Source of the DNA: Planctomycetota bacterium
GTDB taxonomy: Bacteria > Planctomycetota > Planctomycetia > Gemmatales > Gemmataceae
NCBI GenBank assembly: GCA_016873225.1
Contig: VGXS01000014.1
Coordinates: forward strand, 1 to 64,000
Direction: 5' to 3'
DNA length: 64,000 nt
A program made the translations under genes and the position numbers. Each line of letters begins with the position of its first letter. Positions within the stretch are counted from its first letter, which is position 1. Under the pieces are notes generated by a model that saw only the letters and a list, made by a program, of their open reading frames with translations, was not told where the DNA came from and made no database searches. Positions 1 through 17,129 of the stretch are shown piece after piece.

Positions 1-414
1 CTTTCCATCCATGTTGGTGTCGAGTTCCTCGAAGTGCGCGGCAATCCATGGCAACCGCGGACCGTCGCCATCTTTCTTGCCCGACGCGGAATCCTTCCCC
101 TTGGGCATGTCTTTTTTGCCGCCCTTGCCATCCTTCTTGCCGCCGCCTCCCTTCTTTTCTTCACCGCCGCGAGACTTGTAGGTTTCGCTGGTTTGCCTGC
201 CGGCGCCGTCGGTGAACACGAAGTCGAAGGCTCCCCCGTCCCTGGCGGTGTACTGGACCGAGTGGGCCTTGCCCGAAAGCTCATAGACAACCTTGATTGT
301 CCTTTTCTCATCATCCCGGGAGAATCCCGTGATCTTGGCGCCTCGCAACGGCCTGCCTTCCGGGCGCATGGGATTGGCCCTGGGTTGCGGGTCGACCTGG
401 TCGCCACGCACCAT
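1..414 (-). CDS. Lys/Gly-rich protein with EF-hand-like loop, 3' part beyond window
   Basis: The minus frame is open from ATG at 414 to the window edge (138 codons), so the C-terminus is missing. The visible part has a short beta-type region, then a Lys/Gly-rich linker (residues ~84-115, GGEEKKGGGGKKDGKGGKKD), then IAAHFEELDTNMDGK. That last stretch is the start of a canonical EF-hand: an entering helix followed by D-x-N-x-D-G. A G-rich ribosome binding site (AAGGGGG) lies about 6 nt before the start, and only 11 nt separate it from the upstream YHYH gene, so it is probably the last visible gene of the sigma-led operon. No signal peptide is visible at this start; a GTG one codon upstream is an alternative. 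Calcium binding is inferred from the loop only. Confidence 0.6.
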   Translation of the reverse strand, partial: MVRGDQVDPQPRANPMRPEGRPLRGAKITGFSRDDEKRTIKVVYELSGKAHSVQYTARDGGAFDFVFTDGAGRQTSETYKSRGGEEKKGGGGKKDGKGGKKDMPKGKDSASGKKDGDGPRLPWIAAHFEELDTNMDGK

Positions 415-425
415 CACGACCCCCT

Positions 426-1478
426 TTAATCCTCCATTCTTATACGGATAGGTTTTGGTTGAATAATACTTGTAGCCGTCACGCTCCATCCGCCCGTTGA
501 ACGCGTCGAGGTTCCCCGGTTCGTCCCCCCCTGGTCGAGATAGCCGTAAAGGGGGAATCCATCGAGGGCGTATCCGATCGGCTTGCCCTTCCCGACGATC
601 TTTTCCAGGTGAATCGGCGCGATGTGGTAGTGGTAGTCATCGCCCTTGCCGCAGTGGCCGCCGTACTGGTCGAGTTCCCCGGCGATGAAGGTGTCGGTCC
701 TGCCGTCGTTCTTGATCGGGTTGAAGATGGGCACGCCATTGACCGCAAGGGTGATGGCCCCCCTGAACAGCGCCGACTTGGCCGAGACGGGTGTGTCGGC
801 CATCCTTGGCTTGATGGGAATTTGCCAGGCGTTGCCGCCGGTGTAGTTCTGGGGGATGGGCACCTGCTGCTGCCAGGCGCTTATGCCCACCATCATCGGA
901 TGGTCGGGCATTCCGTTGGATTCGACATAGAACCAGTCGTCATCGGATCGGAACTTGAGATTGTCCTTGAATGGCTCGAAATGCCCCTGGATCGCGGGAG
1001 GTGTGTCCCGCACCCAAGCGGCCACGGCCCATGCCCCCGCCATCAACAAAACGGCGGCCGAACCCGCGAACGGGGCCACCGACCAACGCTTGCGTGTCGC
1101 GTTGCCCGCCAGGGCCAGCACGACAAGGCCTGTCATTCCCAGGACCACCATGCCGGTGATGGATTGTCCATCACTTGTCGGGACAATCGCGGCGGAGTCG
1201 CCATTCATGCGCGCGATCGCCGCCTTCCTGGCGCGGATCCATTCACGGTCGGCGGCGCTTAGGCACGCGATGGGAGTCCAAACCACCTCGCCATCATGCT
1301 TAACAAGCAGGGCCTTGCCGTCCTTTTCAAGGGAAAACGAAGCCTCGATCTCGAACAGGCCCTCGGCATCCTTAAAGAGGCGAAGATCCCCCGACTCGCC
1401 GTGGCCAGGATGGGCCAACGACACGGAAACTGCCAGAAACAGCGCCATCAGCGCGGTAACGGTTCGATGGCTCACCAC
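426..1478 (-). CDS. Secreted/membrane YHYH-domain protein with SHD1-like N-terminal domain
   Basis: Residues 1-22 form a signal peptide ending near SLAHPGHG. Residues ~31-80 (DAEGLFEIEASF ... LSAADREWI) match the SHD1 (SLA1-homology) pattern that planctomycetes often place on exported proteins. Two hydrophobic segments follow at ~108-127 and ~136-156. The C-terminal half has GGHCGKGDDYHYHIAPIH and then ALDGFPLYGY, the signature of the YHYH family (PF14240), whose biochemical role is unknown. The start is GTG at 1478 or at 1475; the latter overlaps the upstream stop as GTGA, so translation is probably coupled to the upstream secreted-protein gene. Confidence 0.8.
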   Translation of the reverse strand: MVSHRTVTALMALFLAVSVSLAHPGHGESGDLRLFKDAEGLFEIEASFSLEKDGKALLVKHDGEVVWTPIACLSAADREWIRARKAAIARMNGDSAAIVPTSDGQSITGMVVLGMTGLVVLALAGNATRKRWSVAPFAGSAAVLLMAGAWAVAAWVRDTPPAIQGHFEPFKDNLKFRSDDDWFYVESNGMPDHPMMVGISAWQQQVPIPQNYTGGNAWQIPIKPRMADTPVSAKSALFRGAITLAVNGVPIFNPIKNDGRTDTFIAGELDQYGGHCGKGDDYHYHIAPIHLEKIVGKGKPIGYALDGFPLYGYLDQGGTNRGTSTRSTGGWSVTATSIIQPKPIRIRMED

Positions 1479-2242
1479 GGCCGCCAGGGCAACGCGCCCC
1501 TGATGTCCAGGTTGGGCTTGGTGTTCCAGCGGGGCTTCCAGTCGGCCTTCTCGACCCGGTGCCTGAAGATCACGGTGTTGTCGAGGTCGATGTCGCCCGT
1601 CCAGATGAAGGAAGCGCCCTTGAAATCCGCCTTGTAATAAGGATCCTTGGGGTTCACCTGTTCCTCGGTGTACTCCTTGGCCGCGGCCCAGGCGCTGTCA
1701 TCGAAATCGGGTGCCCACCAGTTGTCCGGGATCGGGACATGCCTGACCTTGGGATCCTTGGCGTCGTGGTTGAGCGGGCCGGTGAAGAACGCCTTGGCCT
1801 TCCACCGGGCGTTGGTCACGGTGCCGTCGCCAAACTTGAGGATGAAGCCGCCGTCGCCGATGCGGTCTCCGTATTCAAGCCCGTTCTTGGGATCGGCATT
1901 GTCCTTGGCCATGATGGCGATGGACATCGGGTATTCAGGCAGGATGTCGACGGAAACGACATTGTGGGGAATGAAGTCGATGGAATCGACGGCCGCCAGC
2001 TTGCCGTTGATGTACATCATGAACCAGTTGTCGGCGTAGATGTTCGCCTTGATGGTGTCGGCCATGGATGGCTTGATCAAGCCGGGCGGTCCGCCTTTTC
2101 CCTTGCCTCCCTTGCCTGGCCCCTTGCCGCCGGTTTGGCCCGGTGGTTGTGTCGCCAGCATGGTCACGGGAAGCAGAAAGGCCGCGAAGGCGACAAGTAC
2201 CCTGATTCCCCAAGCCATCAAGCCATGGACGCTGAAACCCAT
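1472..2242 (-). CDS. Secreted protein of unknown function, Gly/Lys/Pro-rich N-terminus
   Basis: ATG at 2242 is chosen because AGGAGG lies 7 nt upstream. It gives a signal peptide (hydrophobic ~10-30, then TMLATQPP) and a mature part beginning with a GGKGPGKGGKGKGG stretch. The remaining ~190 residues are rich in Asp, Trp and aromatic residues (PDNWWAPDFDDSAWAAA), a look common to extracellular beta-sandwich domains of planctomycetes and marine bacteria; I cannot name the family. The start sits one base after the stop of the anti-sigma-like gene (TAGGATG), and its stop overlaps the YHYH gene, placing it in the middle of a tightly packed unit. A joint extracellular role with the YHYH protein is inferred from position only. 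Confidence 0.7.
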   Translation of the reverse strand: MGFSVHGLMAWGIRVLVAFAAFLLPVTMLATQPPGQTGGKGPGKGGKGKGGPPGLIKPSMADTIKANIYADNWFMMYINGKLAAVDSIDFIPHNVVSVDILPEYPMSIAIMAKDNADPKNGLEYGDRIGDGGFILKFGDGTVTNARWKAKAFFTGPLNHDAKDPKVRHVPIPDNWWAPDFDDSAWAAAKEYTEEQVNPKDPYYKADFKGASFIWTGDIDLDNTVIFRHRVEKADWKPRWNTKPNLDIRGALPWRPW

Positions 2243-2243
2243 C

Positions 2244-3167
2244 CTAGTCCTCCTCTTCAACGGGCCGGCCGGGCCCGTGGTGGGCCTCATGACTGAAAAA
2301 GGAATCTTGAAAGGCGCCCTGGCCGACCAGTTCGACGGCTACGCTGCGCGGCCCGCCCCTGGCCCTGGGCAGGCCATCGAAAACCATCCTCCGGATCACC
2401 CCTGATTCAGGATCAAACAGCAGGTCAACTCGCCGCGGCCCGCGGCCGGCCGAATCCTTCATGTCCGCGCGCAGGAGTGCCAAGCCATCGGCCCCGGTTC
2501 CCAGCAGTTCCAAGTGGTAATCCCGCTGCAAGTCCGCCAGGTCGGATGTGGGATTCACAAACGGAATGCCATGCACATGGCCTGGCAACGGCCAGCAAAA
2601 CCTCAAAGGGTCGGCGCTCACGCGAACCTTGCCCTCCGGCGGAACCGACCAATTCCGGTCTCCATCGCTGCCCGTGACATACTTCCGGCCATCGGGAAAC
2701 GACCGGATCAAAACAAAGCTGCCCGGCTGACGCACATGCAAAACAGCGCCATCGATGGGTGGTTGCCGCGGGTCTCCCGCCCTGATCGAGGTCTGAAATG
2801 ACATAGGTCCTGTCGCGCTGCCGCGACGAGGCTTCGATCAACCGTTCAAGCGTCGTGGAGGCCTTGAGATTTCCAGCGCCGGGCCACCAGATCGCCAGCG
2901 CCGCCACGGCGATGGATGCCGCCAGGAAGCCGGCAAGCCCCCACCGCCCCGACAGGAGCCTTTGGCCATTGAAGGGAGTGAGCGGTTGCCCGACGGCCAT
3001 CGGCTGGCGGATCAGTTGGGCCAATCCGTCATGGATCAGGCCGATTCGCGCGAAGGCCCGCGCGGCGGCGGGATCGGTTTCGAGGATGCGCGCCAACGCC
3101 GCCCCCCATCCTCCGCGAGGATGCCATCAAGATGGCGATGAACCAGTTCCTCGAATGCCTCGCTCAT
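2244..3167 (-). pseudogene. Anti-sigma-factor-like membrane protein, broken by two compensating frameshifts
   Basis: ATG at 3167 overlaps the sigma-factor stop as ATGA and begins MSEAFEELVHRHLDGILAED. That frame meets a TGA near 3047. The natural continuation (ALARILETDPAAARAFARIG, then a membrane helix GLAGFLAASIAVAALAIWW, then RDRTYVIS) lies in another frame, entered if one G is added to the six-G run (plus strand 3102-3107). Near 2774-2800 the reading returns to the first frame (RQPPIDGAVLHVRQ ... DPESGVIRRMVFDGLP), as if one base were extra in GGGCGGGAG. Corrected length is about 307 aa: cytoplasmic N-terminus, one membrane helix, periplasmic sensor-type C-terminus, as in planctomycete ECF anti-sigma proteins. 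Either the gene is dead or the assembly has two homopolymer errors. Confidence 0.65.
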
Positions 3168-3688
3168 GTCGGCACCCCGAAGGCGGAGGCTTTCCCGTCC
3201 ACGCAGTCACGCAGGCGCTCCCGAATCCGCTGGAGGGCCTTGGAAATCGTGTTCGGTTCCGTTTCGAGCAAACCGGCGATGCCGGCGGGCTTCATGTCAC
3301 GGCCATATCGGAGGCGGCACAGTTCCCGCGATTTTTCGTCGAGTTCCGAAAGGCATTCCCCAAGATGGACAAGCCTCTCGGCGCCCGAATCCTCATCGGC
3401 GAAGGCGACCGCGAGGGCATCAAGCGCCGCGGGACTGAAAACCAGCCTGTCCCGGCCCTTGCGCCTGAAATGGAGGCGGGCCTGATTGCGGGCCACACCC
3501 ATGGCCCACGCCTTGAACGAGTGCGAGGGATCAAACCGGCCGAACGACTCGAGGACAGCGACGGCGGTTTCCTGGAGGATGTCATCCCGGTCTTGGAAAT
3601 CACGGGTGATGGAGGCGACGAACGCGGAAACGGCGGGTTGGGCCAAGGCCCACATGCGCGCCGCCTGCCGCGTCAATTCGTTCATCAT
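3164..3688 (-). CDS. ECF-type RNA polymerase sigma factor (planctomycete/Verrucomicrobia type)
   Basis: The protein of about 174 aa has region 2 (residues ~20-80: ITRDFQDRDDILQETAVAVL, then FKAWAMGVARNQARLHFRRK) and region 4 (~110-165: LDEKSRELCRLRYGRDMKPAGI and a helix-turn-helix EPNTISKALQRIRERLRDC). It would direct RNA polymerase to a small set of promoters. ATG at 3688 is preferred because GGGAGGG lies just upstream; an in-frame TTG at 3703 is possible. The ATGA overlap with the anti-sigma-like gene is the usual arrangement for a sigma factor controlled by its partner. The three downstream secreted-protein genes are the obvious candidate targets, probably including autoregulation. Confidence 0.88.
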   Translation of the reverse strand: MMNELTRQAARMWALAQPAVSAFVASITRDFQDRDDILQETAVAVLESFGRFDPSHSFKAWAMGVARNQARLHFRRKGRDRLVFSPAALDALAVAFADEDSGAERLVHLGECLSELDEKSRELCRLRYGRDMKPAGIAGLLETEPNTISKALQRIRERLRDCVDGKASAFGVPT

Positions 3689-3740
3689 GCCACCCTCCCG
3701 CAATCCATTAGCCGCGGGAGGCCGATCATGACAAAAAAAA

Positions 3741-4343
3741 TCAGGACTTTGGCAAAAACGGCACGGGCTTGAGTTCGATCTTCTTCACCGATTGGAGGTA
3801 ATCCAGCACCTTCTCGGAATTCTTGCCGCCAACCTGGGCGTGAAAATGCAGGGAGAATCCATGGGGCCCCTTGGCATCGATCAAGGCGGGCTGAAGGGTC
3901 AGGAAGGCCTTGACCGCCTCGAGTTGGCCGAGCATGGCCGCGCAAAAGATGTCGATCCTGGCTCCCTTGCCAAGCAGGAACTCCACGATGTCGCGCCTGC
4001 CCATGTGGGAGGCGCCCCCCAGGGCCGATTCCCAATCGCCGCCACCCCAGTCCACCGTGGCGTTCAAAACGGCCGGTTCCTTGGCGAAGAGTTCCTCAAC
4101 CATCTTCAAGTCGGAATGGGCGTAAACAACGAAGTCCTGAACCAGGACGCGGTTGATCAGCGGCTTTTTCCACGACGGCTTGAACTTCGGGTGGGCATAG
4201 CCTCCCGGGTTGGGCGCTTCCGCCGGGACGGCAGGCGGGGCATCAGCCGCCGCCGCGACACCTCCAAGCGCCAGAACGCCGGCGGCCGCGACGGGAAAGT
4301 CGCGCCTGGCCATCTGCCCATCATCCCCCTGTTGGCCGCTCAT
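3741..4343 (-). CDS. Exported ankyrin-repeat-like protein with Tat-type signal
   Basis: ATG at 4343 is supported by GGAGG 8 nt upstream. The N-terminus carries ARRDF followed by a hydrophobic stretch and AAAADAP, a plausible twin-arginine signal peptide. After a Pro-rich spacer, residues ~75-180 contain helix pairs of ankyrin character (ESALGGASHMGRRDIVEFLL, then AAMLGQLEAVKAFLTLQP). The protein is about 200 aa. Ankyrin repeats mediate protein contacts, so no reaction is assigned. It lies 23 nt after the cupin gene and 52 nt before the sigma gene on the same strand, so it may be co-transcribed with either group. Confidence 0.7.
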   Translation of the reverse strand: MSGQQGDDGQMARRDFPVAAAGVLALGGVAAAADAPPAVPAEAPNPGGYAHPKFKPSWKKPLINRVLVQDFVVYAHSDLKMVEELFAKEPAVLNATVDWGGGDWESALGGASHMGRRDIVEFLLGKGARIDIFCAAMLGQLEAVKAFLTLQPALIDAKGPHGFSLHFHAQVGGKNSEKVLDYLQSVKKIELKPVPFLPKS

Positions 4344-4366
4344 GATCGGATCCTCCCTCATTGGAT

Positions 4367-4810
4367 TCACTTCGGGACAAACACCGTGCCCGTGGGTCCG
4401 ACGCCTGTCTCCAGGTATTCGGCATCGCCTTGGCGGGCCCATACAAAGTGCAGCGTCCTCGCCGGCACCACCAGCACCGCGCCAGCGGGTATTTCCACCA
4501 TCCGGCTTTCGTCAAACCGCTCGCCAAATCCCACCCAAATGGTACCCGAAAGAACGGTCGTCTGCCGCTCGTCCGGATGGCTGTGCGGTTCCAGCCGGGC
4601 CCCCTTGGAAGCCTTCGCCCTCAGGATATATGACCCCGGGGCCTTCTCCTGGCCCAAGACCCAGGCGGCCCTGAAGCCCTTCGCCACCGGCGAGTCGGCC
4701 CATTTGAACGATTCCGGCCGTAAAGGCATGGGCATCGGGCCATCGGACCGGGCCATCGAGGCCAGAAGGAACATGGCCGCCCCGAGTCCTGCCATCCTGA
4801 TAGGCATCAT
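4367..4810 (-). CDS. Exported cupin-domain protein
   Basis: The protein of 147 aa has a short signal peptide (residues 1-22, ending MARSDG) and one cupin barrel. The first cupin motif is visible as EPHSHPDERQTTVLSG, carrying the two His and the Glu expected to bind a metal, and the second as VPARTLHFVW with the third His. The family ranges from dioxygenases to sugar-binding proteins, so only metal binding is inferred; the substrate is unknown. It follows the DUF1501 gene by 37 nt on the same strand and is probably part of the same transcript. Confidence 0.8.
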   Translation of the reverse strand: MMPIRMAGLGAAMFLLASMARSDGPMPMPLRPESFKWADSPVAKGFRAAWVLGQEKAPGSYILRAKASKGARLEPHSHPDERQTTVLSGTIWVGFGERFDESRMVEIPAGAVLVVPARTLHFVWARQGDAEYLETGVGPTGTVFVPK

Positions 4811-4847
4811 GTCTCAGCACCCCCAAGCCGAAAGTCGCCAGTTCCGG

Positions 4848-6257
4848 TCAGGCCATCAGTTCCCCGACCACCCGCGCCTTGGTTACCGCCGCGTCAGTCA
4901 ATGTGTCTTCCCTGCCCTCATGCTGGAAACCGAGCCGTTCGTGATCCAGGCCCAAGGCATGAAGAAGGGTCGCGTGGAGGTCGGCCACCCGGACGATTTT
5001 CTCGGTCGACGCGTAGCCAAAGTCATCGGTCGCGCCGTGGGCGTGGCCGGCCTTGAAGCCGCCACCAGCCAGCCAAAGGGAGAAGGCGTGCCGGTTGTGG
5101 TCGCGGCCGTCGGCGCCTTGGGAAATGGGCAGCCGCCCGAACTCCCCCGTCCACATGACGATCGTGGATTCCAAAAGCCCCCGGCGCTTGAGGTCCTCGA
5201 CCAATCCGGCCGATGGCTGGTCCGTCCTCGCGCACAGGTTCCTCAGGCTGTCGGCATTCTTGTTGTGGGTATCCCAAGGCTGGCCGCTCAGGAACACCTG
5301 CACGAAACGCACGCCCCTTTCCACGAGTCGTCGGGCCAGGAGGCACCTTTTGCCGTATTCGGCCGACTTGGGATTGTCGATTCCGTACAGCCTTTTGGTC
5401 TCCTCGGGCTCACCCGAGACATCGAGCACCTCGGGAACGGACATCTGCATCCGCGCCGCCAATTCGTAGTGGGAAAGCCGGGCCTCCAGTTCGGCGTTTC
5501 CCGGATGGCGCGCCCAATGGCTGGCGTTGAGGCCGCCCAGGAGATCAAGTTGGTTTCTCCTGGCAACCGGGGAAACGCCGGCGGGAGTTTCCAGGTTTGC
5601 CACGGCGGCACCGGAGGCCCGGAAAGGAGTTCCCTGATAGACGGCCGGCAGGAAACCGGCCGACCAGTTGTTGGTGCCATCCACGGGAAGGCCTCCCGGA
5701 TCGGACAGCACCACATACGCGGGAAGCTCGCGCCGCGGCGAACCCAGCCCATACAGCACCCAGGCGCCCAAGGCGGGGCGGCCGGGAAATATCTTGCCCG
5801 AATGAATCACGCGCAGGGCGGCCTCATGGTCGACCGACTCGGTCTTCATGGAGCGGACCAGCGTGATGTCGTCGGCGACCCTGCCCAGTCCGGGCAGCAG
5901 TTCCGACAACTCCATTCCGGATTGGCCTTTTTTATGAAACCGGAAGGGGGACGAGAGGAGCTTGCCCTGCTGGGAATGAAAATGCACCTCCAGCTTGTCG
6001 GGGTGGGGCTGGCCATGGCGGCGGGTCAGTTCGGGCTTCGGGTCGAAAAGATCCATCTGGCTTGGCCCGCCATGCTGGAATAGACAGATGACGGCCTTGG
6101 CCTTGGGCTGGCGCGTGCCCGGGCGGGCGCCCAGCGGATCGCGGTTGGTTTCGGCGCGCGATTCAGACGCCAGATGCGCCAGGGCGAGCGGCCCGAGGGA
6201 TCCGGCATGCGCGGCCAGGAACGCCCGCCGGGTCGACGCGAAATCGCCATTCAACAT
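4848..6257 (-). CDS. DUF1501 family exported protein (sulfatase/alkaline-phosphatase-like fold)
   Basis: ATG at 6257, 8 nt after the upstream stop, gives about 469 aa. The start has the Tat-like pattern STRRAFLAAHAGSLGPLAL. Family hallmarks follow: QHGGPSQMDLFDPKPEL, VRSMKTESVDHE, RLVERGVRFVQVFL, WTGEFGRLP and GRDHNRHAFSLWLAGGG. DUF1501 proteins are related to the alkaline phosphatase/sulfatase superfamily, and the conserved Asp, His and Glu-Phe-Gly-Arg residues would form the metal site, but no substrate has been established to my knowledge. Its immediate upstream partner is a DUF1549/DUF1553 protein, the pairing seen across planctomycetes and consistent with a joint exported complex. Confidence 0.9.
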   Translation of the reverse strand: MLNGDFASTRRAFLAAHAGSLGPLALAHLASESRAETNRDPLGARPGTRQPKAKAVICLFQHGGPSQMDLFDPKPELTRRHGQPHPDKLEVHFHSQQGKLLSSPFRFHKKGQSGMELSELLPGLGRVADDITLVRSMKTESVDHEAALRVIHSGKIFPGRPALGAWVLYGLGSPRRELPAYVVLSDPGGLPVDGTNNWSAGFLPAVYQGTPFRASGAAVANLETPAGVSPVARRNQLDLLGGLNASHWARHPGNAELEARLSHYELAARMQMSVPEVLDVSGEPEETKRLYGIDNPKSAEYGKRCLLARRLVERGVRFVQVFLSGQPWDTHNKNADSLRNLCARTDQPSAGLVEDLKRRGLLESTIVMWTGEFGRLPISQGADGRDHNRHAFSLWLAGGGFKAGHAHGATDDFGYASTEKIVRVADLHATLLHALGLDHERLGFQHEGREDTLTDAAVTKARVVGELMA

Positions 6258-6264
6258 CGAGCGC

Positions 6265-8517
6265 TCACTCCACATGAAGAAAGGCGTTGCTGGCCAGGAG
6301 CATCTGGCACAGGTCCGCCCAGGTTCGTTCCTTCCCGTCCTTGGCACCCCGGTAAGCTTCGGCCTGCGCCGCGAGGAATTTCCCGCAGGCATGCTCCTCC
6401 TCCTTGGCGGGTTCCCGGCCGCAGGCAAGGCGGAACGCCAGGGACAACCGCTTGATGGCGTCATCGCCCGCCTCCCGTGCGAGGCGCCCGGCGAACGCGG
6501 CGGCCCTGGAACGGGCGAATTCGGAGTTCAGCATCACGAGCGACTGCAGCGGCACGGTCGAAGGCGACCTCTTTCCACAGGTGGATACCATCGCGGGAGC
6601 GTCGAACAACTGCAGGAATGTCACCACCTGGGTGCGTCTTTGCTGTAGATAAACCGATCGCCTTCGGGCCCCGGCAACCGCCTCGGACACCTGCACCGTT
6701 CCATCCGCCTCACGCCGGCTCGGGACATATGGCCCTCCCTGCGAGGTGTCCAATTCCCCCGAAACCAACAGCATCGAGTCCCGGATCGATTCGGCATCAA
6801 GCCTTCGCAGGGGAAACCGGGACAAAAGCCGATTGTCAGGGTCCGCGGCACCGCCTCCCCTTGCGGGCGCGGAGCGTTGCGTGGAGACGGCCGATGCCAA
6901 AATCAACCTGTGCAGGTTTTTGACACTCCATCCCTGCCTGATGAATTCAACCGCCAAGTGATCCAGCAACTCGGGATGCGACGGCTTGGCCCCCGAAACC
7001 CCAAGGTTGTCCACCGTCGAGACGATTCCCGTTCCGAAATGGTGTTGCCAGATCCGGTTCACCATCACGCGCGCCAACATCGGATGGCCAGGGGATGTCA
7101 CCCAACGGGCAAAGGCAAGCCTTCTTCCCGAGGAAACTCGTTCCTTGGGCTTGGGAGCGACCTCGAACCTGTTCGCGGAGCTTTCGAGCGCGGCGATCAC
7201 GCCGGGCTGAACCTCTTCCCCCGGCTTGGTGTGAACGCCCCGGCGAAGAAGGCGGTGGACCGGCGGTTGGGGGTCTGTCTCCACGAAGGCCGATATCTTT
7301 TCCAAAGGCGGGGGCCGGGTTCCCTCCAACCGCTTGACCTCCTTCTCGGTCTTCTCGCGCTCGGAGGCGAAAGCGGGGAACTTCTTGGCGATCTCCTCAT
7401 CCTTGAACTCGACCAACGAGGCGTGGGCCTTGAGCAGGTCGGCCTGCGCCTTGGATCGCTTCTCCCCGGGCGCGCTCCATGCCTCGAGGATCGGCCCGCG
7501 CAGCGACTCCTTCACCGAGCCAAGCCTTTCCTCGAGCCATCGGCGGCGCAGCGGTTGGGACTTCCGCGCCAGCTCCTCCCGCTCATTCCTGATTTGCCGG
7601 TCGATGGCATCGCTAGCCTTCTGCCACTCTTCCCTTTCGGCAACCGTCGCGGCCACCACAACCCGCTCGTTCGGCTTCGACCACCGGCCGGGGTTGTAAA
7701 CCGGAAACAACAGCGCCTGCATGCCGTAATACTCGGCCTGGCTGATCGGCTCGAACTTGTGGTCGTGGCAGCGGGCGCACTGGATCGTCAGGCCCAGGAG
7801 CGAATTGGCCAGGTTCTGTAGGTTTCCTTCCAGCACGGTGAACCTGTCGGTGAGCACCTCGTCCGGATTGCCATCGCTCTCGCCGGTTCCATCGGGCGCG
7901 TTTCTCAGGAAGTGGGTGGCGACAAGGCTTTCACGAACCTCGGCCCCCGCGTCGCCACCGGGCTTGAAATTCGCCAACTCATCGCCCGCGAGCTGCTCCA
8001 TCACGAACTTGTCGTAGGGTTTGTCGGCATTGAAGCTCGAAATCACATAGTCACGGTATTTCCAAGCCAGCGGACGATCACTGTCGGCGTTGAAGTAACC
8101 GTTGCTGTCGGCGTATCCAACGGCGTCGAGCCACATCTTGCCCATGCGGATTCCATAGTGAGGCGATGCCAGGTATTTCTCGACCATGCGGCCATGGGCA
8201 CCGGGGGATCGGTCGTTCTCAAAGGCGGCGGATTCCGCCGGGGTCGGCGGTAGGCCGGTGAGGATGAAACTCACCCGGCGGATCAGGGTCGCGCGGTCGG
8301 CCTCGGGAGAAAAACCCCAACCCTTGGGCTCGAGTTTCGCCAAAAGGAACCGGTCGATGTCGGTGCGGGAGCCGCCGTTCACCCGGGGCACCGCGGGCCG
8401 GGCCATCGGGCGATAGGCATGGGGCGGATTCTCCCCGGAAGGCGGGTCGGCGGCACTCAGGGACATGGTGTGCCAGGCCATGAAAACCCATGCCATCAGT
8501 AACGCGGGCGGGCGCAT
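6265..8517 (-). CDS. DUF1549/DUF1553 (PSD1) exported protein lacking the cytochrome domain
   Basis: ATG at 8517 has TAGGAG 6 nt upstream and gives about 750 aa with a signal peptide ending LSAADP. DUF1549 covers roughly residues 40-270 (DRFLLAKLEPKGWGFSPEAD, RVSFILTGLPPTPAE, MWLDAVGYADSNGY, and a CXXCH motif in CARCHDHKFEPI). A coiled, Lys/Glu-rich middle (~300-400) follows, then DUF1553 (~460-720: RLAFARWVTSPGHPMLARV, NRIWQHHFGTGIV, PLQSLVMLNSEF). Unlike its paralogue at 13111-15624, it starts directly at DUF1549 and has no N-terminal planctomycete cytochrome C domain. Biochemistry is unknown; it heads the minus-strand run that includes the DUF1501 gene. Confidence 0.9.
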   Translation of the reverse strand: MRPPALLMAWVFMAWHTMSLSAADPPSGENPPHAYRPMARPAVPRVNGGSRTDIDRFLLAKLEPKGWGFSPEADRATLIRRVSFILTGLPPTPAESAAFENDRSPGAHGRMVEKYLASPHYGIRMGKMWLDAVGYADSNGYFNADSDRPLAWKYRDYVISSFNADKPYDKFVMEQLAGDELANFKPGGDAGAEVRESLVATHFLRNAPDGTGESDGNPDEVLTDRFTVLEGNLQNLANSLLGLTIQCARCHDHKFEPISQAEYYGMQALLFPVYNPGRWSKPNERVVVAATVAEREEWQKASDAIDRQIRNEREELARKSQPLRRRWLEERLGSVKESLRGPILEAWSAPGEKRSKAQADLLKAHASLVEFKDEEIAKKFPAFASEREKTEKEVKRLEGTRPPPLEKISAFVETDPQPPVHRLLRRGVHTKPGEEVQPGVIAALESSANRFEVAPKPKERVSSGRRLAFARWVTSPGHPMLARVMVNRIWQHHFGTGIVSTVDNLGVSGAKPSHPELLDHLAVEFIRQGWSVKNLHRLILASAVSTQRSAPARGGGAADPDNRLLSRFPLRRLDAESIRDSMLLVSGELDTSQGGPYVPSRREADGTVQVSEAVAGARRRSVYLQQRRTQVVTFLQLFDAPAMVSTCGKRSPSTVPLQSLVMLNSEFARSRAAAFAGRLAREAGDDAIKRLSLAFRLACGREPAKEEEHACGKFLAAQAEAYRGAKDGKERTWADLCQMLLASNAFLHVE

Positions 8518-8550
8518 GATGACTCCTAGACGATTCGTGCCTGTTGTTCC

Positions 8551-10092
8551 ATGAGACATCCCGGGTGCCGGGCCGTCCACACCATTATCACGAATCGGGA
8601 CTTGGCCCGAACCGGATGGTTCGGCACCCCGCTAAGATGGCTCAGTCTTGGGGAAACAGGATTGGCGACTTCCGGCGGGAAACCATGGCTCACCGATGCG
8701 GCGCGGCCGGCTTGGCAACGCGTCGCCTGGCTGGCCTGGCCCGCCTTCCTGCAGCAGATGCTCATCCTGGTCATCCATGTCTCCGACCGCTGGCTGGCCG
8801 GACACGCCTCGCCCGATGGCGAAGGCACCGACCTTGCGGCCCAGGCGGCGCACACAACCTGCTTTTACCTCGGCTGGGTCATGTCCAGTTACGGCACGCT
8901 GGTTTCGGTGGGAGCCACGGCGCTGGTTTCGCGGGCCGTTGGTGCCGGAAACCCCGGGAAAGCGAATCGACTCACCCATCAATCGCTTATGCTGGCTGCG
9001 GGCCTCGGGTGCCTCGCGACGATCCTGGCCATCCCGCCGCTGGAACAACTGCTGGCGCTGCTGCAACTGGACGGACCGGCCCTCGGCCTGGCGAAATCGT
9101 ACCTGACTCCTCTCATTTTGGCGTTTCCCCTGCAACTGCTCTCGATTGGCGCTTCGGCCTGCCTTGCCGGCGCCGGGGATACCCGAACGGGCCTTTGGGT
9201 GCTGGGAGGCGTGGCCACGCTCAACATTCCTTTGACCTGGTGGTTCTTCCATGGCGGCGGGGGAGTGCCTGAACTTGGATTCGCGGGCATCGCCATCGGT
9301 ACCGCCGTCAGCCAGTCGGCGGGGGCCGTGGCGCTGTTGGTTGTCCTGTCCTTGGGAAGGGCGGGACTTGAACTTAAAGCCTCGCTCTTCGCACCCAATC
9401 CCGCCGACCTGAAAAGCCTTCTCGCCGTGAGCCTGCCGGCCGCGCTCGACAGCCTTTCCATCGCGATGGGACAGCTTGTTTTCATGGGAATGGTCAACAG
9501 CCTTGGCGACGCCTCCCGGGGCGCGCACGGCATCGCCTTGGGCTGGGAGGCCCTGGGTTTCCTCACCGGCGCGGCGTTCGGCACGGCAGGCATGACACTC
9601 GTGGGACAGAACCTCGGCGCCGGCAGTCCCGCCGAGGCGAGGCGATGCGGTTGGACGGCCTTCCTCATGGGAGCGGTCGCCATGTCGATGATGGGGGTCC
9701 TGTTCCACCAAGCCGCCCAGCCGATGTTCGGACTGTTCTGCCCTAGGCCGGAGCAGGCTCCCATCATGCGCCTGGGCGTCCCCGTGCTTCAGCTTGTGGC
9801 TTTTTCGATGCCGGCATTGTCGGCCGTAATCGTGCTCACCAGTGTTCTCAGGGGAGCTGGAGACTCGGCGCATCCGCTCGTGTACACATGGATCGGTTTC
9901 CTCGGAGTGAGGCTGCCGTTGGCGGCCCTTTTGGCGCTCGACAGTGTCATGGTGCCCGGCCTCATCAACCTCGCGGGAGCAGGCATGGGACTATACGGGT
10001 GCTGGCTGGCGATGCAGGCCGACATCCATGTGCGCGGGGCGCTGTTCCTCTGGCGGTTCCAAGGCGACGATTGGCTCAAAACAAGGGTCTGA
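8551..10092 (+). CDS. MATE-family multidrug/toxin efflux transporter
   Basis: This is an integral membrane protein with about 12 hydrophobic helices and the duplicated MATE architecture: an N-half from residue ~55 (AWLAWPAFLQQMLILVIHVS) with GAGNPGKAN after helix 3, and a C-half from ~290 (AVSLPAALDSLSIAMGQLVF) with VGQNLGAGSPAEARR. MATE proteins export cationic drugs or metabolites using Na+ or H+ gradients; the substrate cannot be read. The first ~40 residues are not hydrophobic and look non-native; a TTG at 8662 (residue 38) is an alternative start. The gene is divergent from the DUF1549/1553 gene with a very short shared promoter region. Confidence 0.88.
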   Translation: MRHPGCRAVHTIITNRDLARTGWFGTPLRWLSLGETGLATSGGKPWLTDAARPAWQRVAWLAWPAFLQQMLILVIHVSDRWLAGHASPDGEGTDLAAQAAHTTCFYLGWVMSSYGTLVSVGATALVSRAVGAGNPGKANRLTHQSLMLAAGLGCLATILAIPPLEQLLALLQLDGPALGLAKSYLTPLILAFPLQLLSIGASACLAGAGDTRTGLWVLGGVATLNIPLTWWFFHGGGGVPELGFAGIAIGTAVSQSAGAVALLVVLSLGRAGLELKASLFAPNPADLKSLLAVSLPAALDSLSIAMGQLVFMGMVNSLGDASRGAHGIALGWEALGFLTGAAFGTAGMTLVGQNLGAGSPAEARRCGWTAFLMGAVAMSMMGVLFHQAAQPMFGLFCPRPEQAPIMRLGVPVLQLVAFSMPALSAVIVLTSVLRGAGDSAHPLVYTWIGFLGVRLPLAALLALDSVMVPGLINLAGAGMGLYGCWLAMQADIHVRGALFLWRFQGDDWLKTRV

Positions 10093-10181: not shown

Positions 10182-11150
10182 ATGCAATCTCGCTCCTCTT
10201 TTCCTTTCCGGCGTAGGGATGCATTCACCCTCATTGAACTGCTTGTTGTCATCGCCATCATCGCGGTTCTCATCGGCCTGCTGGTGCCGGCGGTCCAGAA
10301 GGTGCGCGAAGCCGCCAACCGAATGCAATGCGCCAACAACCTCAAGCAGATCGGCCTGGCATGCCAATCCCACCACGACAGCAAGGGAACATTTCCTCCC
10401 GGTGGCATCACCGAGGGCTATTGCTGCGCCACACAAAGCAAGACGAACTGGGCCATTGAAATCCTGCCGTTCATCGAAATGGATTCGATCTACAAGCGAT
10501 ACGACCAAAACTCGTTCAATGAGGCCGCGGCAAACCAGTTTGTCCGCGAGCAACCCATCAAGACCTACACATGTCCCTCCGATGCCAGCGCGGGCGGAAA
10601 TATCCTGACTAGGCCGGCCAGCGGACCCGGCAGCGGCCTCAACTACATGCCAGGCTCCTACCGGGCCGTTTCCGGACGCGCCAACATCACCGCCCCGCTT
10701 GGGTGGTGGGACAATGGCGAGGGACTGGCCCTTCCTGCCACCTACAAGGGAGCCATGCACACCGTTTGGGCCGCCCAAGGCCTCATTCCCGAGCGCATGA
10801 GCAACATCATCGACGGCACTTCCAACACCCTCCTGGTGGGTGAATACCAAACCAAGAACACGACCAATCGCCGAACCTTCTGGGCCTACGCCTATACCTC
10901 CTACGCCTCTTCCTCTGTGCATCCGGCCAGCCACACCTACCTCAACGATTTCGCCCGCTGCGTAGCCATCAGCGCCCAGCAGGGACTCGACAACCGTCCC
11001 TGCCGCAGGGCTTTTGGCAGCTTTCATTCCGGGGGAAGCAACTGGGCCGTTTGCGACGGGTCGGTGCGTTTCATTCCCGATACCGTCGACATGAACATGC
11101 TCTCGAACATGGCCACCATGTCGGGTGGCGAAGTCGTGAACATCAACTGA
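10182..11150 (+). CDS. DUF1559 prepilin-like secreted protein
   Basis: ATG at 10182 (GGTGGA 7 nt upstream) gives about 322 aa. The start has the type IV prepilin / type II pseudopilin signature: a basic leader RRRDA cleaved before [20 protein letters not shown], then the planctomycete-typical [17 protein letters not shown] and NNLKQIGLACQSHHD. The C-terminus has the usual FHSGGSNWAVCDGSVRFI. The residue before the cleavage site is Ala rather than the usual Gly. Family members are very numerous in planctomycetes; assembly into a pseudopilus or surface fibre is presumed, not shown. The next gene, a lipoprotein, starts within its stop codon. Confidence 0.92.
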   Translation: MQSRSSFPFRRRDAFTLIELLVVIAIIAVLIGLLVPAVQKVREAANRMQCANNLKQIGLACQSHHDSKGTFPPGGITEGYCCATQSKTNWAIEILPFIEMDSIYKRYDQNSFNEAAANQFVREQPIKTYTCPSDASAGGNILTRPASGPGSGLNYMPGSYRAVSGRANITAPLGWWDNGEGLALPATYKGAMHTVWAAQGLIPERMSNIIDGTSNTLLVGEYQTKNTTNRRTFWAYAYTSYASSSVHPASHTYLNDFARCVAISAQQGLDNRPCRRAFGSFHSGGSNWAVCDGSVRFIPDTVDMNMLSNMATMSGGEVVNIN

Positions 11151-17028: not shown

Positions 17029-17129
17029 TAACCGAAAGATCCGGGGGGCCGGCGAGCCATGTCGCCGGCGAACTATTCCCATGATATCATGATCGTTCCC
17101 CTGAAATGACGGCTGGAGAAGAAGGCCCC

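Follow-up and report, generated by a model that had tools for sequence, protein, structure and literature searches.

Do the tightly packed genes at the start of contig VGXS01000014.1 from a planctomycete (Gemmataceae, assembly GCA_016873225.1), which include an extracytoplasmic function (ECF) sigma factor gene and a gene of the YHYH family, form a dedicated regulon, and what would such a regulon do? The window analysed here is the stretch of 64,000 nucleotides (nt) that begins with base 1 of this contig (G000:C14:1-64000), G000 being a draft genome (4.25 Mb, 172 contigs). The genes do form an operon, though not the five-gene one that an earlier note on this DNA had proposed. We consider, with a probability of about 0.68, that it is a self-contained ECF regulon, an autoregulated switch for exported proteins acting on sulfated or phosphorylated glycans. 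For YHYH (PF14240), a widespread family whose function is unknown, the operon offers a first regulatory and functional setting; no report of a link between ECF sigma factors and YHYH proteins was found in the literature searched.

Structure of the operon

The following features were assigned at the contig end:
3708 to 3732, minus strand: promoter-like element GTCATGATCGGCCTCCCGCGGCTAA with the consensus GTCAYGA-N12-GGHTAA, placed 44 nt ahead of the sigma start and just past the stop codon of the preceding gene
3164 to 3688, minus strand: ECF sigma factor of the TIGR02989 subfamily, 174 amino acids, intact (NCBIfam TIGR02989; Pfam Sigma70_r2 and r4_2)
2244 to 3167, minus strand: putative anti-sigma factor gene, broken here, with predicted cytoplasmic N-terminus, one transmembrane segment and extracytoplasmic C-terminus
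1472 to 2242, minus strand: predicted secreted CBM67-like carbohydrate-binding protein, 256 amino acids, intact (AlphaFold model, VIA structure match)
1 to 1478, minus strand: protein with SHD1, two transmembrane segments, YHYH, Lys-rich and EF-hand parts (Pfam SHD1 and YHYH), its frame broken near 526 and its EF-hands continuing on contig C73
1 to 489, minus strand: not a separate gene but the post-frameshift C-terminal half of the YHYH protein, previously described as an EF-hand-like Lys-rich protein
1 to 127, no strand: sequence shared exactly (127 bp) with the end of contig G000:C73, on which the remaining operon genes lie

The first four genes stand on the minus strand in the order and with the junctions originally described, namely an ATGA overlap between sigma and anti-sigma genes (3167-3164), a 1-nt gap before the secreted protein (start 2242) and a GTGA overlap before the SHD1/YHYH gene (start 1478). 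The fifth gene does not exist as such. From about position 526 down, minus-strand frame 0 gives DEPGNLDAFNGRMERDGYKYYSTKTYPYKNGG, and this is the second half of the YHYH domain; a single unbroken frame crosses the matching point in the sister species G002 (93% nucleotide identity; contigs C376 and C248). A separate EF-hand gene was ruled out since the YHYH domain carries on in the new frame and the G002 protein is continuous, and the 11-nt junction once placed before it is in fact the distance from a premature stop to an internal Met. Programmed frameshifting at a run of Gs was ruled out as well, because relatives keep the frame without it, and indels occur in other operon genes too.

Extension past position 1, as the earlier note had advised, succeeded through contig C73. 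Beyond the overlap, this contig carries the EF-hand end of the YHYH protein, a type I sulfatase gene and a calcineurin-like phosphatase gene, followed by nadA. All six operon genes (sigma, anti-sigma, lectin-like, SHD1/YHYH/EF-hand, sulfatase and phosphatase) are open in G002, where the YHYH gene straddles two contig ends, and the operon is intact, with variations, in G010 and G011 too.

Conservation of the sigma/anti-sigma pair with YHYH genes

Eighty named YHYH loci were taken from genome contigs by YHYH similarity alone, as the best-scoring and not as a random sample, and scanned with profiles built here for sigma and anti-sigma genes within 6.5 kb; the upstream count uses loci with at least 6 kb of upstream sequence. 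The pair lies upstream of the YHYH gene on the same strand in 17/53 loci and downstream in 0/56. Lack of such synteny in relatives, which had been named as evidence against the proposal, is thus not observed, because the pair is conserved with the YHYH gene across Planctomycetota. Most often the genes follow the order sigma, anti-sigma, lectin-like protein, sulfatase, YHYH, sulfatase; this order or a near variant is found in Gemmataceae, Pirellulaceae and Planctomycetaceae, including the cultured Neorhodopirellula pilleata Pla100 (L133), which makes an experimental test feasible. The partners are also fused within one open reading frame (ORF): YHYH with the lectin-like protein in L137, L146, L154, L162, L167 and L173, with a phosphatase in L149 and L158, and with a sulfatase in L163. 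That linkage to an ECF gene is ordinary gene crowding is barely credible. Planctomycetes are indeed rich in ECF genes, with 15-55 TIGR02989-like matches per genome, but the upstream and downstream counts, the orthology of the operon sigmas, their common promoter motif and the fusions among exported partners already contradict coincidence.

The sigma factor scores 151.2 bits against NCBIfam TIGR02989 (E 2e-44), above the curated cut-off of 124.55, over profile positions 2-158 of 158, which bears out its first assignment. In a tree whose comparison set of other TIGR02989 sigmas was small (n=7), 21 operon sigmas group in one clade with support 100/99, and a custom profile gives most operon sigmas 180-345 bits versus 52-83 for other members of the subfamily. 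They resemble the known TIGR02989 sigmas (Sig-70_gvs1, Rhodopirellula/Verrucomicrobium) in scoring above the cut-off and in having a neighbouring gene for a single-pass anti-sigma-like protein, and differ from them in forming their own clade, in having a motif of their own (GTCAYGA-N12-GGHTAAG) and in the exported cargo that recurs with them.

The second gene had been called anti-sigma-like, in keeping with its position next to the sigma gene and a single hydrophobic segment; its ORF is broken twice, which had been missed. In G002 it is intact and encodes 310 amino acids. The family was assembled from genes found beside the sigma, and its alignment, judged by eye, contains one hydrophobic segment. 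DUF4880 was matched by 6/22 members (best E 1.7e-6) and the anti-sigma family NF052375 by 4/22, in neither case by the member of the window's own subfamily, and sequence search found no solved relatives. We regard the product as a putative membrane anti-sigma partner. In Schlesneria (L109, L111) and Verrucomicrobiota (L146, L162), the same cargo and the same type of anti-sigma accompany a sigma that belongs to another branch of the family. At two further operon heads (L102 6538-7383, L107 8632-8826) the sigma is truncated or joined to what is left of the anti-sigma, motif and cargo genes being kept, and these heads are further signs of regulator loss.

A fixed two-block motif before the sigma gene

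ECF systems typically regulate themselves through a two-block promoter. The regions upstream of the operon sigmas have in common the consensus (T/G)GTCA(T/C)GA-N12-GG(T/C/A)TAAG. With the spacer left free in the pattern GTCAY-N15..18-HTAA, a match precedes the sigma gene in 14/23 operons, always with N16, against 0.26 on average and 2 at most in 300 resampled sets of shuffles. The motif also precedes two clusters without an adjacent sigma gene, before YHYH in L104 and before a sulfatase-YHYH pair in L124, and the search for a shared ECF promoter motif that the earlier note had advised thus had a positive outcome.

Genome scans are a more independent test of the motif than the 14/23 count. Over 1.8 Mb of loci nearly all matches lie at operon heads, and GTCAYGA-N12-GGHTAA has the operon head as its sole genome match in G002, G010, G011 and G189. 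The longer pattern gave 5 matches in 294 genomes, 2 of them directly upstream of orthologous sigma genes, including one in G035 that no YHYH gene follows. Additional exact matches in G000 (C32) and G357 were taken as chance, as they fall inside unrelated genes. The operon sigma would read this motif as its promoter, and the fixed spacing of the two blocks amounts to a testable promoter prediction for a planctomycete ECF sigma.

The exported proteins

The secreted protein, previously left as unknown, can now be given a predicted identity. It matched no Pfam family, and a weak sequence match pointed to the GH78 rhamnosidase 2okx (E 0.25). Its AlphaFold model (predicted local distance difference test, pLDDT, 82) was compared with solved structures by VIA. 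Residues 166-299 of 3w5n, the CBM67 domain of the Streptomyces avermitilis alpha-L-rhamnosidase SaRha78A, aligned with Z 10.2 and a root-mean-square deviation of 3.2 over 120 amino acids at 25% identity, well above unrelated entries, and the Pleurotus ostreatus lectin 6kc2 with Z 9.6 over 120 residues. The model thus suggests a CBM67-like carbohydrate-binding domain with a fold like those of both proteins. Asp71-Asn72 is invariant in 42/42 lectin-like proteins, and by a linear offset this pair may be equivalent to ligand residues of SaRha78A. Calcium dependence and L-rhamnose binding are reported for the CBM67 domain in 3W5N (PMC4690510). Unlike that domain, the lectin-like protein stands alone or is fused to YHYH and is not appended to a GH78 enzyme.

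Pfam found both the SHD1 and the YHYH domain of the fourth protein, as first described, and detected EF-hands at its C-terminus in the G002 copy. YHYH scores are 48-54 bits against a gathering cut-off of 25, and His53, His135, Asp140/141, His143, His145 and Asp166 are invariant in 59/59 sequences. YHYH proteins of phage tails have been predicted to be Zn-dependent hydrolases (PMC7824862), and the invariant His and Asp residues, as described there, fit this prediction of a Zn-binding enzyme. The operon form belongs to the same Pfam family and, unlike the phage-tail form, is chromosomal, membrane-associated, fused to SHD1 and part of a sigma-controlled operon. A PEBP domain forms the C-terminus of 77/91 other YHYH proteins; C-terminal EF-hands are the minority state, present in this genus and in 5/91 others. 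G000 holds three more YHYH genes (C29, C3, C61), of which the C29 copy is 51% identical and has no operon sigma nearby.

The two remaining enzymes were examined in G002. The sulfatase matches PF00884 (E 6e-43) and carries the formylglycine motif CSPTR (C-x-P-x-R) of type I sulfatases; the phosphatase matches Metallophos PF00149 (E 3.5e-9) and has the metal motifs GD, GNHD and GHDH of calcineurin-like enzymes. In the congener G001, a gene resembling that of a formylglycine-generating enzyme (judged by eye) lies beside the scar left by operon loss (L191, G001:C18, 96-1139, plus strand) and is possibly relevant to sulfatases.

A proposed role in glycan processing

The theme of the operon is exported carbohydrate-binding and ester-hydrolysing proteins rather than calcium. 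We propose that an extracytoplasmic signal would act on the anti-sigma and free the sigma, which would recognise GTCAYGA-N12-GGHTAAG upstream of its own gene and amplify hardly anything but its own operon. The exported lectin, the membrane-anchored SHD1/YHYH protein, the sulfatase and the phosphatase would then most likely bind an anionic extracellular glycan and strip its esters, YHYH serving perhaps as an additional metal-dependent enzyme or as a binding partner. A bolder version, which we think rather unlikely, makes YHYH a new metal-dependent enzyme fold acting together with the CBM67-like lectin, sulfatase and phosphatase on a single glycan that is sulfated or phosphorylated and perhaps rich in rhamnose, with the sigma/anti-sigma pair as a dedicated glycan sensor served by a single promoter per genome.

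In Bacteroidota, ulvan-type loci combine CBM67 domains with sulfatases under ECF/anti-sigma control. The polysaccharide utilisation loci of that phylum that are governed by ECF/anti-sigma pairs likewise place exported glycan-binding proteins and sulfatases under such a pair; unlike them, the present operon belongs to another phylum and includes a phosphatase and YHYH, and neither SusC/SusD nor glycoside hydrolases were recognised among its identified genes.

In the main rival view, the pair would be an RseA- or FecR-like switch for envelope stress, with sulfatase, phosphatase, YHYH and lectin repairing or remodelling the cell's own envelope and not processing foreign glycans. SHD1 and the transmembrane segments suggest membrane association of YHYH, the PEBP domains of so many YHYH proteins could act on lipids or proteins, and the profiles used recognised neither a glycoside hydrolase nor a transporter in the operons. 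A sulfatase with a CBM67-like lectin is, however, typical of external glycans, the secreted partners have no membrane anchors, and sparse presence (10/392 genomes for the lectin-like protein) with repeated loss suits an accessory function better, so that we consider an envelope role unlikely. A response to calcium is more improbable still. The earlier note had seen here an inducible, calcium-related surface system, of which the dedicated sigma/anti-sigma pair with exported proteins stands. EF-hands on YHYH proteins, the calcium dependence of the SaRha78A domain and the invariant Asp-Asn pair of the lectin would let the operon sense or use Ca2+, but most YHYH proteins have PEBP in place of EF-hands, which leaves the calcium theme weak, and a lectin can depend on Ca2+ without calcium being the signal.

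Several observations weigh against the glycan regulon that we prefer. The 17/53 loci with the pair are drawn from a similarity ranking and do not give a phylum-wide rate, and 36/53 have no nearby sigma gene, so that not all YHYH function can depend on the sigma. The regulated cargo varies, as two loci without YHYH indicate: in G003 (L179, G003:C1:1546000-1560000, 3030-7614, minus strand) an orthologous pair heads two metallophosphatases, and in G035 (L202, G035:C4:379000-389500) an orthologous sigma with the motif is followed by anti-sigma-like, cytochrome/DUF1549-like and DUF1501-like genes, the last two assigned by eye. The motif was discovered and counted in one and the same upstream set. 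CBM67-like folds are not always rhamnose lectins. For YHYH, whose structure model is confident (pLDDT 91), Foldseek and VIA found no structural relative among solved proteins, which does not exclude that one exists. A YHYH protein under a private sigma, with recurrent and even fused partners, nevertheless provides a concrete functional hypothesis for the family.

Probable decay of the operon in the genus

Compared with G002, the G000 operon carries five frameshifting deletions. Two lie in the anti-sigma gene (-1 near 3103 and -8 near 2778), where the corresponding frame is open in G002; the YHYH gene has lost 1 nt near 526, in a run of Gs, and the sulfatase and phosphatase genes, both frameshifted, have lost 1 nt each. 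Genome-wide indel noise was rejected as the cause: the roughly 19.9 kb aligned beside the operon contain 8 indels, all read as outside genes (one, at 17040, is 5' of the likely start though inside a long ORF), and neither this flank nor nadA has a coding frameshift. The ratio of nonsynonymous to synonymous substitution rates (dN/dS) of the operon genes is an ordinary 0.08-0.20, giving no signal of relaxed selection, and secondary stops are absent; any inactivation must therefore be recent. In the congener G001, the motif directly abuts the final third of the phosphatase gene, nadA comes next, and the rest of the operon is lost.

The frameshifts could also be assembly or low-coverage errors, the operon being intact and functional in the organism, and this deserves serious if lesser credence: normal dN/dS, missing secondary stops, a contig break within the operon and the G run at the YHYH deletion all agree with it. 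The clean flank and nadA and the demonstrable absence of the operon from G001 speak against it. We infer that the frameshifts are biological and that this copy is probably decaying, real decay being somewhat favoured over error. Promoter scar and frameshifts within one genus would illustrate how a one-operon regulon gets lost.

Neighbouring sequences

Upstream of the sigma gene, on the same strand (window 3741-8580, minus), lie genes for a DUF1549-type protein (6265-8580), a DUF1501 protein (4848-6464), a cupin (4367-4810) and an ankyrin-like protein (3741-4442), and the promoter-like motif is placed between this set and the sigma gene. Repeat-rich sequence whose length varies relative to G002 occurs at a contig end (L036 5264-5617, G000:C73). 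Finally, a stretch of about 150 bases in the window (about 10221-10380) is a dispersed repeat, with more than 30 copies in G002 at 77-87% identity.

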